Positions 57,944-60,005 of a DNA stretch of 64,000 nt are shown here, in pieces. The DNA comes from Granulicella sibirica. Its GTDB lineage: Bacteria > Acidobacteriota > Terriglobia > Terriglobales > Acidobacteriaceae. Position numbers and translations under genes: made by a program. Location of the stretch: the NCBI RefSeq assembly GCF_004115155.1, contig NZ_RDSM01000001.1, forward strand, positions 992,001 through 1,056,000. Direction: 5' to 3'. The notes beneath the pieces are model-generated. The model searched no databases and was not told the origin of the DNA. It worked only from the letters and a program-made list of their open reading frames with translations. Every line of letters starts with the position of its first letter. Positions within the stretch are counted from its first letter, which is position 1.

Positions 57944-58019
57944 TGGAGCACCGAATGGGATTTGAACCCATGAATACTGGTTTTGCAGACCAGCGCGTTA
58001 GCCACTTCGCCATCGGTGC
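57944..58019 (-). tRNA. tRNA-Cys (anticodon GCA)
   Basis: On the minus strand the acceptor arms GCACCGA and TCGGTGC pair perfectly over seven bases. The D arm is GCG...CGC, the anticodon stem-loop CTGGTCTGCAAAACCAG carries GCA, and the T arm ATGGG-TTCAAAT-CCCAT is regular. Discriminator T and an encoded CCA complete it. It lies 84 bases downstream of the peroxiredoxin stop on the same strand with no clear terminator between, so read-through co-transcription is possible. A TAGAAT about 50 bases upstream might instead be its own -10. Confidence 0.95.
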
Positions 58020-58103
58020 CCGTGCCGCCGCGCAGGGAGGCTGCACGGCGGGTCGGCGCGGGAGCTTTGGGGTCTCCCTTTGCTTCTTTGATTCTACCCG
58101 CTC

Positions 58104-58760
58104 TTACTTGGGCTGTGCAGTCGTACGGAGATACGGCTTCACCGTCTTGTAGCCCGGGAAGATCTTATCGGCTTCCTCGTTCGACACAGCAGCCGTGATG
58201 ATGACATCGCCGCCCTGCTTCCAGTTCGCCGGCGTCGCCACCTTGTGCTTCGCCGTGAGCTGCATCGAATCGAGCACGCGAAGCACTTCGTCGAAGTTAC
58301 GCCCTGTCGTCATGGGATAGGCGAGAAGAAGCTTGATCTTCTTGTCCGGTCCAATCACGAAGACGGTCCGTACCGGTGCGTTCAGCGCAGGCGTGCGGCC
58401 TTCGCTCGAAGTGCCAGCGTCGGCGGCAAGCATGTCGTACAGCTTCGCAACCTTCAGCTCGGGATCGCCGATCATCGGATAGGTGACCTTGTGGCCGCCC
58501 ACGTCCTCGATATCCTGCGACCACTTCGCGTGGCTCTCCACTGGATCGACCGAGAGGCCGATGACCTTCGCGCCGCGCTTGGCGAACTCGCTCTCCAGAC
58601 CCGCCATGGCGCCGAGTTCGGTCGTGCAGACAGGCGTGAAATCCTTGGGATGCGAGAAGAGGACGACCCAGCTATCGCCGATCCACTCGTGGAAGTCGAT
58701 CGTGCCTTGCGTGGTCTCTGCGGTAAAGTTTGGTGCGGTATCGTTGATGCGGAGTGACAT
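58104..58760 (-). CDS. Peroxiredoxin, 1-Cys (Prx6) type
   Basis: 218 residues. The peroxidatic cysteine is Cys45 in FTPVCTTELG. The extended C-terminal domain (GRNFDEVLRVLDSMQLTAKHKVATPANWKQGGD) is that of Prx6 enzymes, with no second resolving cysteine visible in the usual place. It reduces H2O2 and alkyl peroxides using an external thiol. Its transcript appears to begin with a Cys-rich leader peptide and terminator (58977-58829), suggesting control by cysteine supply, and tRNA-Cys follows it. Confidence 0.92.
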   Translation of the reverse strand: MSLRINDTAPNFTAETTQGTIDFHEWIGDSWVVLFSHPKDFTPVCTTELGAMAGLESEFAKRGAKVIGLSVDPVESHAKWSQDIEDVGGHKVTYPMIGDPELKVAKLYDMLAADAGTSSEGRTPALNAPVRTVFVIGPDKKIKLLLAYPMTTGRNFDEVLRVLDSMQLTAKHKVATPANWKQGGDVIITAAVSNEEADKIFPGYKTVKPYLRTTAQPK

Positions 58761-58828
58761 AGTGTTCGTTTGCCTTCCGGCTTCCTTTTCCTAATATTTC
58801 TTGGATGGTTGGTGTTTGCCAGACAGTG

Positions 58829-58863
58829 AAAAACCCACCCGGCTCGGTGGCCTAGGGTGGGTT
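58829..58863 (-). terminator. Attenuator terminator upstream of the peroxiredoxin gene
   Basis: On the minus strand AACCCACCC (58863-58855) pairs with GGGTGGGTT (58840-58832), followed by a run of five T. It lies 33 bases after the leader-peptide stop and 69 bases before the peroxiredoxin ATG, so it would stop transcription before the gene unless disrupted. CACCC in its 5' arm can instead pair with GGGTG inside the leader ORF (58911-58906). Confidence 0.75.
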
Positions 58864-58896
58864 CAGAGTGCTTTCGAAGACGTTACTTCGATCCGC

Positions 58897-58977
58897 TCAT
58901 CCACACACCCCTGCAGGGCGGCAGCAACAGCAGCGGCAGCAGGAGGTGATGTTCGAAATGGCGGAGTTGCTGGTCAT
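58897..58977 (-). CDS. Cysteine-rich leader peptide of the peroxiredoxin unit
   Basis: An ATG at 58977 (minus strand) opens a 26-codon frame beginning MTSNSAISNITS and continuing CCRCCCCRPAGVCG before TGA. Seven Cys codons (TGC TGC CGC TGC TGT TGC TGC, then TGT) occur in the last 14 codons. It is followed by an intrinsic terminator and then the peroxiredoxin gene, the standard layout of amino-acid attenuation. The ribosome site is weak. The Cys run could in principle be a by-product of a GCAGCA-rich repeat, but its position, frame and stop argue for a real leader. Confidence 0.6.
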   Translation of the reverse strand: MTSNSAISNITSCCRCCCCRPAGVCG

Positions 58978-59069
58978 GGTTCTAAGTTTTTACCGCAGCC
59001 AGCTATGCTAGCCGTGGGGCCGTTGTGCCCACGTGCGGTTACCCAAACTGTACGTCTGAGGTGTATTTG

Positions 59070-60005
59070 ATGTCAAACAAGCCAAACTCCGAGACTCCAT
59101 TCAGCCCTCGTGCCTTCGACTACGCCCAGGTCGATGTCTTCGCCGAGCACGCACTTGAAGGCAACATGCTCGGCATCTTCACCGACGCCCGCGGTCTCTC
59201 GGACGAGGAGATGCAGGCGCTCGCACGTGAGACGAACCTCTCCGAGACGACCTTCATCGTGCCCCGTGACGAGGCCGTGGAGCGCGAGCGCGGCGTCCAG
59301 GTAAGGATCTTCACCGTGCAGGAGGAGCTACGCTTCGCCGGGCATCCTACGCTCGGGACGGCAAGCTGGCTCTACTGGAATCATCCGACCCTGCGTGGCG
59401 CGGAGGAGATACGACTCGACCTCAAGGTCGGCCCCGTGCCGGTGCGTTTCGAGGCTGCGGACGGCAAGCCCGGGGTCTTTGGAAGGATGAAACAACCCGA
59501 GCCGGTCTTCGGCGCAATCCACGATCCCGCAAAGATCGCCACGGCCCTCGGCCTCGCCGTGGAAGACCTCGATCCCGACTTGCCTATCCAGACCGTCTCG
59601 ACCGGCATGCCGTTCTGCATCGTGCCTCTGCGCTCGATGGCGGTCGCAGGTCGCCTGCAGATCCCCTACAGCCTCGCACAGCCATACCTCGACGCAAGCG
59701 ACGCGAAGTTCTTCCACTGCATCACGCGCACGGAAGGCACGAAAGAAGCCCAGTGGCACGCCCGCATGCAGTTCTACAACGGCGAAGATCCAGCGACAGG
59801 ATCCGCCTCCGGATGCATGATCGCCTACCTCGTCCAGCACCGCGCCGCGCGGAGCGATGAGGAGGTCATCGTCGAACAGGGGGTAGAGATGAGGCGGCCG
59901 AGCAAAATTTACGTTCGGGCGGGCTCCCAAAGCGGGAAGGTCACCGGTGTGTTTGTAGGAGGACGCACCATTCCCGCTGCAATGGGACGCTTTTTCCTGC
60001 CATAA
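59070..60005 (+). CDS. PhzF-family isomerase/epimerase-like protein
   Basis: 311 residues from the ATG at 59070, six bases after GAGGTG. PhzF-fold features are QVDVFAEHALEGNMLGIF, NLSETTFIVP with the catalytic Glu, RIFTVQEELRFAGHPTLGTA, and EDPATGSASG in the second half. PhzF isomerises a phenazine precursor; most homologues act in unknown pathways. No phenazine genes are nearby. It is divergent from the leader-controlled peroxiredoxin unit, so both promoters lie in 58978-59069. Confidence 0.9.
   Translation: MSNKPNSETPFSPRAFDYAQVDVFAEHALEGNMLGIFTDARGLSDEEMQALARETNLSETTFIVPRDEAVERERGVQVRIFTVQEELRFAGHPTLGTASWLYWNHPTLRGAEEIRLDLKVGPVPVRFEAADGKPGVFGRMKQPEPVFGAIHDPAKIATALGLAVEDLDPDLPIQTVSTGMPFCIVPLRSMAVAGRLQIPYSLAQPYLDASDAKFFHCITRTEGTKEAQWHARMQFYNGEDPATGSASGCMIAYLVQHRAARSDEEVIVEQGVEMRRPSKIYVRAGSQSGKVTGVFVGGRTIPAAMGRFFLP

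Follow-up and report, generated by a model that had tools for sequence, protein, structure and literature searches.

The 64,000-nt stretch of Granulicella sibirica DNA analysed here (contig NZ_RDSM01000001.1, positions 992,001 to 1,056,000; the window) carries a compact unit on its minus strand. In this unit, a predicted promoter, a structured 5' untranslated region (5' UTR), a short leader open reading frame (ORF) rich in cysteine (Cys) codons, an intrinsic terminator, a 1-Cys peroxiredoxin gene and a gene for a cysteine transfer RNA (tRNA), tRNA-Cys(GCA), follow one another in that order, and the unit is considered below as a candidate leader-peptide attenuator. Its features, in the order of transcription, are as follows.

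59047..59076, minus strand: predicted sigma-70 promoter of the leader transcript (TTGACA-18-TACAGT), from a consensus scan, with a similar site in clade relatives
58982..59045, minus strand: structured 5' UTR RNA with a three-way junction, from covariation in a 16-sequence alignment
58897..58977, minus strand: leader peptide ORF of 26 codons, MTSNSAISNITSCCRCCCCRPAGVCG followed by a stop codon, from the ORF list and poly-Cys leaders in relatives
58921..58941, minus strand: candidate regulatory codon run Cys-Cys-Arg-Cys-Cys-Cys-Cys, from the sequence and Cys runs in relatives
58896..58911, minus strand: predicted 5' strand of the antiterminator (R2), overlapping the leader end and stop codon, from its duplex with R3 and family tests of moderate strength
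58854..58867, minus strand: predicted 3' strand of the antiterminator (R3), overlapping the 5' arm of the terminator, from its duplex with R2 and family pairing tests
58829..58864, minus strand: intrinsic terminator (GAACCCACCC...GGGTGGGTTTTT), from folding energy and pair shuffles
58104..58760, minus strand: 1-Cys-type peroxiredoxin of 218 amino acids with a single cysteine (PVC), from Pfam matches to AhpC-TSA (8.3e-32) and 1-cysPrx_C (1.6e-10)
57944..58019, minus strand: second tRNA-Cys(GCA) gene with an ordinary 7/5 cloverleaf and encoded CCA, from ARAGORN and Rfam RF00005 (68.8 bits)

The end of the leader ORF reads CCRCCCCRPAGVCG (58977-58897), and GGGGTG stands behind the Cys run at 58911-58906. 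The tRNA-Cys gene starts 84 nt past the end of the peroxiredoxin ORF. No terminator-like site came up in this gap in a consensus scan, in line with a preliminary description of this DNA, which had seen no clear terminator there; the scan does show one weak promoter-like site, weighed below. The same description had placed the leader, the GGGGTG, the terminator, the peroxiredoxin and the tRNA-Cys at their correct coordinates. At gathering scores, the tRNA is the sole Rfam match in the whole window, with no T-box or other riboswitch, and no Rfam match to 58800-59100 was obtained up to an E value of 5.

Conservation of the leader, terminator and predicted antiterminator

A search for the peroxiredoxin covered 250 genomes from the window's family, G. 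sibirica among them, and detected it in 142. Of the 150 places listed, 130 were examined, the remaining 20 being mostly lower-ranked or near a contig end. Within 300 nt downstream of the peroxiredoxin gene, a tRNA-Cys gene was found at 60 of the 130 loci, a gene for selenocysteine tRNA (tRNA-Sec) at 13 and neither at 57. These loci are related to one another, and 60 loci are not 60 independent events. The relatives carrying the unit that have names are Acidobacteriaceae, and the cultured strain Terriglobus albidus DSM 26559 (locus L005) has leader, peroxiredoxin and tRNA-Cys.

A leader was defined as a stop-terminated frame with at least four Cys per 10 residues within 300 nt upstream of the peroxiredoxin. 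Such a poly-Cys leader was present at 59 of the 60 tRNA-Cys-linked loci, compared with 0/60 on the reverse strand, a mean of 1.6/60 in dinucleotide shuffles and 0/60 in a control on the 5'-terminal 300 nt of the peroxiredoxin gene. Under a stricter threshold of at least five Cys in 10 residues, 53/60 loci were retained, against 0 in the reverse and shuffle controls. The leader was also found at 4/13 tRNA-Sec-linked loci (reverse 0, shuffle 0.4) and at 24/56 loci without a nearby tRNA (reverse 1, shuffle 0.6), one of the 57 having too little upstream sequence. These proportions indicate that the tRNA link is nearly always accompanied by the leader, and that the combination of leader and peroxiredoxin is wider than the tRNA link. 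Over the final 25 codons of each of the 59 leaders, Cys is encoded 282 times by TGC and 130 times by TGT, a mixture that fits selection for the amino acid and not a simple repeat. Conservation and the controls rule out that the Cys run arose by chance.

The terminator hairpin of the window (58864-58829) has a folding energy of -21.0 kcal/mol, compared with a shuffle mean of -10.3 (z score -4.2). Behind each of the 59 leaders comes a hairpin of terminator type with a T tract, in most cases CCCACC(C)...(G)GGTGGG; 58 of these hairpins were picked automatically, and that of L114, where another hairpin had been picked, was set by hand to CCCACCC...GGTGGGTTTT. The alignment holds 58 of the 60 loci, omitting L161 (no leader) and L102 (identical to L101). 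In it, 91.4% of the terminator cells were paired, against 41-60% when slid, and pairing and covariation beat 500 of 500 shuffles in all five measures. The preliminary description had proposed conservation across related acidobacteria as a check, and the Cys codons and the terminator both pass it.

The predicted antiterminator strand R2 comprises GCGGGTG plus the bases to and past the leader stop codon, and its partner R3 reads CTCAGAACCCACCCGC in one clade. The R2:R3 duplex has an energy of -12.9 kcal/mol in the window. Over the family, native duplexes averaged -15.7 kcal/mol, compared with -14.4 for species-swapped pairs (0 of 10,000 permutations as low as native), -12.4 when R3 was shuffled and -12.0 when R2 was. 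In the alignment, 73.0% of the antiterminator cells were paired, against 34.3-43.6% when slid, and shuffles reached 73.0% in 3/500. Ten pairs were changed on both sides, against 7.0 in shuffles (reached by 11/500); shuffles reached the native number of double-change cells in 114/500 and of pair types in 238/500. A matched change was seen by eye at L103, where the terminator arm CACCTGC stands with the leader sequence GCAGGTG.

GGGTG is kept near the leader end in 49/59 leaders, distributed by script over the three frames as 45, 3 and 1 (L156, one of the 3, also has a main-frame copy), and Arg-Val is spelled CGG GTG in 35/40 cases. This use of several frames and the codon preference suggest that R2 is kept as RNA, under selection at the nucleotide level. 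The median spacing to GGGTG is 34 nt from the first Cys codon of the run and 10 nt from the end of the last. Given the ribosome footprint, a GGGTG 34 nt ahead lies past the front edge of a ribosome stalled at the first Cys codon. With these spacings, a stall early in the run would leave R2 free, and one that has reached the stop codon would lie over R2. When R2 was left free and the 3' arm of the terminator was not yet made, R2 paired with the 5' arm over at least 4 nt in 54/59 predicted folds, and with a ribosome at the stop codon the terminator formed in 58/59. R2:R3 may thus be mutually exclusive with the terminator, and the position of R2 over the stop codon would suit a strand blocked by a ribosome halted there; its pairing exceeds the slid and swapped controls, with modest covariation and a fold test little above that of shuffled R2. 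A pairing of R2 with the 5' arm of the terminator had been suggested beforehand, over 5-6 bp; the pairing itself stands, its predicted length is greater, and its statistical support is moderate and mixed.

Cys leaders also precede other genes. R1, a covariance model of leader plus terminator, was searched in 120 family genomes and had matches at an E value of 0.1 in 115 of them, many surely by chance; 15 loci and then 20 further, weaker ones were inspected. A poly-Cys leader was found before cysteine synthase (L303, above the NCBIfam cysK cut-off; L292, from Pfam fold and sequence), before CysD (L308, above the cut-off), before an SsuA-family sulfonate-binding protein (L294, above the cut-off) and before a sulfide:quinone-reductase-like protein under the family cut-off (L299). 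It was also found before nitrite/sulfite reductase-family genes at L295, L300, L302, L305, L312, L313, L314 and L316 (by Pfam NIR_SIR, or by NCBIfam under equivalog cut-offs) and at L307 and L310 (by sequence inspection). Whether these reductases act on nitrite or on sulfite is not decided by the family models; the Cys leader and, in genome G026, the siroheme-type genes behind the reductase lead us to take them as sulfite reductases. Among the inspected loci, no poly-Cys frame was found at L298, L311, L317 and L318, and no convincing target gene at L309 and L315. The case for cysteine sensing is strengthened by the presence of this kind of leader ahead of cysK, cysD, nitrite/sulfite reductase-family and sulfonate-binding-protein genes. 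The earlier statement that Cys leaders are known in other phyla is right as far as it goes; Acidobacteriota have them too, beyond the unit in the window. As a separate observation, the R1 matches at L311, L317 and L318 are terminator-like and lie upstream of aspartokinase-like and acetolactate-synthase-like genes (names from sequence inspection), possibly as attenuators of the family for other amino acids.

In the G. sibirica genome itself, a reductase-family gene (G000:C3:632026-633234) has upstream a short ORF, MPQVSNAPLCCRRCLAQA followed by a stop codon, and a terminator-like hairpin (R1 E value 0.16); this Cys leader is weaker than that of the window. The genome has 11 R1 matches up to an E value of 1. 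Apart from those at the unit itself and at the reductase leader, the matches L319, L320 and L322 were inspected, two of them lying in sequence full of TGC/TGT triplets. In a DNA-pattern scan of this genome for poly-Cys leaders, the window site was the sole mismatch-free match, and up to three mismatches gave 29 matches, below the 43 of a reversed-pattern control. When R1, a model biased to the window's family, was searched in 199 phylum-wide genomes, all 14 genomes with a match at 1e-5 belonged to that family.

The second tRNA-Cys gene and the upstream RNA

The G. sibirica genome carries a housekeeping tRNA-Cys gene beside tRNA-Gly, from which the window tRNA-Cys differs, and this copy rules out the window gene as the sole tRNA-Cys of the genome. 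The preliminary description had spoken of the limiting tRNA: tRNA-Cys(GCA) is indeed there, as a second gene and not as the only one. The window tRNA looks functional (GCA anticodon, U73, encoded CCA). Its ordinary 7/5 cloverleaf rules out a Sec-like or an 8/4, selC*-type structure, the latter described, in the excerpted account, as a tRNA-Cys with an 8-bp acceptor and a 4-bp T stem (PMC7609411). At the 15 housekeeping-type tRNA-Cys loci examined, tRNA-Gly lies in the same stretch in 12, and a poly-Cys frame within 400 nt upstream was found in none, two of them with only 161 and 315 nt available.

Full-length second tRNA-Cys genes numbered 29 in 100 genomes and were assigned to units by inspecting the surroundings of each; 26 of the 29 lie in units headed by a poly-Cys leader. 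Fourteen stand with the same peroxiredoxin (G000, G017, G031, G033, G034, G035, G047, G064, G066, G067, G070, G088, G095 and G097), one with two peroxiredoxins (G098) and four with another peroxiredoxin (G052 twice, G039 and G072). Five have no protein gene between leader and tRNA (G029, G081, G083, G094 and G096). In G026 the tRNA-Cys follows a reductase, a siroheme-synthase-like protein and a tetrapyrrole methylase, 2 nt past the last stop codon, and in G078 it follows SsuA/B/C-like genes, 13 nt past the last stop. Outside the 29, the direct form occurs also in G102, and the form with another peroxiredoxin in G054 and G196. In the six genomes with the direct form, leader and terminator stand straight before the tRNA, with the end of the terminator 13-87 nt upstream of it. 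Judged by gene context, the second tRNA-Cys is tied more closely to the attenuator than to the peroxiredoxin, and nothing argues more strongly for the tRNA itself being a target than its recurrence in Cys-leader units.

Other tRNA genes and fragments were observed along the way. In G019, a tRNA-Cys of the second type without a Cys leader (L251, L341) lies just behind an Rrf2-family regulator gene. The G. sibirica genome contains partial 3' halves of both tRNA-Cys kinds, without a cloverleaf (L255 and L256; G000:C3:1107114-1107147 and 1066526-1066556), which resemble remnants of elements integrating into tRNA genes. The peroxiredoxins adjoin tRNA genes for Cys and for Sec alike: tRNA-Sec stands in place of tRNA-Cys at L145, L148, L152, L163, L166, L179, L180, L184, L197, L198, L203, L204 and L212, and Rfam RF01852 confirms it in the seven of these 13 loci that were tested, as well as at L287 and L306.

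In 36/59 leaders, a start codon is preceded at a distance of 6-24 nt (6-14 nt in 31; shuffles 0.9%) by a perfect TTGACA-N17/18-TANNNT, and these 36 leaders are probably nearly leaderless, since the promoter is so close to the start codon. In the window's clade, the -35 box begins 98-114 nt before the leader start; promoters of 20 of the 23 far-promoter leaders were looked at (L094, L102 and L120 omitted). In the window, 69 nt separate the end of the -10 box from the leader start, and this gap is structured; for both reasons the window leader is probably not leaderless.

This gap holds a three-way junction formed by P1 (ACCGC/GCGGU), P2, a hairpin with an (N)AAC(Y) loop, and P3, a covarying hairpin. 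Its alignment of 16 sequences comprises 15 of 17 regular-expression finds (without L099, spurious, and L102, a duplicate) and L130, added by eye; L092 was omitted for its unclear P3. Over 19 pairs, 88.1% of cells were paired, against 31-49% when slid, with 30 double-change cells, against 12.0 in shuffles. Shuffles reached the native pairing and covariation score in 0/500 each, the pairs changed on both sides in 2/500 and the pair types in 93/500; the pair counts lean towards the structure, as P2 of the RNAalifold structure was lengthened by hand. The window sequence alone folds moderately better than shuffles (z score -1.73), and it matches the junction model at 9.3e-16, being one of the 16 sequences that build the model. 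In 200 family genomes, 13 matches stronger than 1e-12 were obtained, each right before a poly-Cys leader with a peroxiredoxin/tRNA-Cys unit, three of them outside the training set (G098, G052 and G196). Strong matches in this search were confined to such units, in the window's and near genera. Of eight weak matches (E values 1e-5 to 0.005), five were inspected and none lay ahead of a poly-Cys leader. The junction RNA may set leader translation or sense a second signal. On the other strand, a PhzC/PhzF-like gene (59025-60005, plus strand) runs divergently from the unit, and its in-frame ATG at 59070, likely the true start, abuts the predicted leader promoter.

Proposed mechanism and alternatives

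The unit combines the marks of an attenuator: a leader ORF rich in one amino acid, an intrinsic terminator before the first gene, and downstream genes tied to cysteine. On this sequence evidence, we consider it highly probable that a leader-peptide attenuator reading Cys codons controls the peroxiredoxin and the second tRNA-Cys. With ample Cys-tRNA, the ribosome would cross the Cys run to the stop codon and cover R2, the terminator would form, and transcription would end ahead of the peroxiredoxin gene. With scarce charged tRNA-Cys, the ribosome would stall early in the run and leave R2 free to pair with the emerging R3; the terminator would be delayed, and RNA polymerase would continue through the peroxiredoxin gene into the second tRNA-Cys gene. 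We infer the stalling, the read-through, the co-transcription of the tRNA and the purpose from this arrangement.

The purpose is likely a single cysteine-shortage response, with sulfur assimilation in other units and peroxide defence plus extra tRNA-Cys here, which would be triggered when oxidants or starvation lower charged tRNA-Cys. Oxidants consume cysteine. In Escherichia coli, peroxide degrades tRNAs, so that fewer full-length molecules are left, and cells with raised tRNA levels are protected (PMC4474833). A switch responding to charged tRNA-Cys would sense both the loss of cysteine and the loss of tRNA, and would restore peroxide defence and tRNA-Cys jointly.

Several observations weigh against this interpretation. 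The tRNA-Cys-linked locus L161 has no leader, no leader was found for the second tRNA-Cys genes of G020, G019 and G089, and a weak promoter-like site (9/12 consensus, 58119-58091) precedes the window tRNA in the consensus scan. The terminator slid by +2 or +3 gives 13 or 21 double-change cells, against 8 unslid, with far fewer cells paired. For the antiterminator, the average sequence finds that 45.5% of its partners in the matrix pair at least as well as the native one, which implies that the energy excess of R2:R3 arises in some clades and is inflated by relatedness. Its covariation score is matched by 71/500 shuffles, and a shuffled R2 pairs with the terminator arm in 44.1/59 on average, against 54 for the native one. 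When full-length sequences were folded to minimum energy with R2 free, 48/59 formed the terminator and 10/59 the antiterminator; because the terminator outcompetes it there, the antiterminator must act kinetically, by forming first. Conservation and position carry the argument for the antiterminator, folding by itself being weak evidence. Finally, more tRNA does not by itself cure a cysteine shortage.

On balance, we lean towards a broader reading, in which the second tRNA-Cys of Acidobacteriota would be a dedicated, conditionally expressed tRNA, autoregulated through its own charging and moved among Cys-attenuated units (peroxiredoxins, the nitrite/sulfite reductase family, sulfonate transport, or alone) without leaving this kind of control, with the junction RNA as a second sensing input in the window's clade. 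A less probable alternative, which we would place among the unlikely ones without dismissing it, accepts the same attenuator and holds that the added tRNA-Cys stays mostly uncharged, as an amplifier (through prolonged stalling and stringent signalling) or a reserve, and not as extra decoding capacity. In true cysteine starvation more tRNA could not add charged tRNA, and the tRNA is a separate gene alongside the housekeeping copy, both of which suit this idea; the functional appearance of the tRNA and the protection by raised tRNA levels in peroxide-treated E. coli speak instead for a direct use of the extra tRNA.

It is improbable that the attenuator is real for the peroxiredoxin only, with the tRNA-Cys having its own promoter and being a neighbour by chance or as an insertion point. 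The weak promoter-like site before the window tRNA agrees with this, as do the 15/60 loci in which four or more consecutive T lie between peroxiredoxin and tRNA. The gap between them, however, has a median of 53.5 nt and goes down to 19 nt over the 60 loci; the tRNA lies almost at the preceding stop codon in G026 and G078 and directly behind leader and terminator in six genomes; and it occurs in five other unit types, with the great majority of copies under a Cys leader. Least credible of all is a Cys-rich nascent peptide that senses a metal, the redox state or a reactive sulfur compound irrespective of cysteine supply, since, for all that a peroxidase is the main target and the peptides are very Cys-rich, the ORF stops about 4-10 codons past the Cys run, so that by general knowledge the run would still be within the ribosome, R2 is kept as nucleotides, and the targets elsewhere are cysteine-assimilation genes.

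Relation to known systems

Polycysteine leaderless short ORFs of mycobacteria were reportedly described by Canestrari in 2020. Poly-Cys leaders before cys operons in mycobacteria had been predicted earlier (PMC1262725). They resemble the present leaders in lying before cysteine-metabolism genes, and in that the promoter here is 6-14 nt before the start in 31/59 leaders. Conserved terminator hairpins were not found there, and the excerpts of that report mention no tRNA target, whereas an intrinsic terminator with a predicted antiterminator, and a tRNA-Cys, are present here. The uORFC-8-2 motif of Rhodobacterales, upstream of cysS, also combines tandem Cys codons in a short ORF with an intrinsic terminator, and read-through is proposed to occur when ribosomes stall on the Cys codons (PMC8632094). 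As far as the excerpts of this report go, it differs in its target, cysteinyl-tRNA synthetase, in its two conserved Cys codons and in its phylum. The gene downstream of the window leader is a peroxiredoxin gene and not cysS, the target includes tRNA-Cys, and most of the leaders have a longer Cys run (at least five Cys in 10 residues in 53/60). The PBC-28-3 motif of the same report is likewise a structured RNA ahead of an AhpC-like peroxiredoxin gene; compared by description only, it is one long stem adjoining the start codon, and the excerpts mention no Cys leader or terminator.

In a literature search of incomplete coverage, with most subscription papers outside it, we found neither a Cys attenuator of Acidobacteriota, nor a peroxiredoxin/tRNA-Cys unit, nor leader-peptide attenuation of a tRNA gene; the preliminary description had likewise known of no account of such a unit. 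To our knowledge, the targets of leader-peptide attenuation have been biosynthetic enzymes, transporters and synthetases. The mechanism is a known one, and a tRNA gene with a peroxidase under such control is apparently new in the literature that we searched. If true, the supply of an adaptor would be set by the reading speed of its own codons, the regulated product being the cognate tRNA, and cysteine supply, peroxide defence and tRNA supply would be joined in one switch. This would make testable why a tRNA should be raised as its charging falls. Attenuators of the trp type have a leader ORF rich in codons of the regulated amino acid and a mutually exclusive terminator and antiterminator. The present unit resembles them in its codon-rich leader ORF and its opposition of terminator and antiterminator, and it differs in its product, which is the cognate tRNA together with a stress enzyme instead of biosynthetic enzymes.

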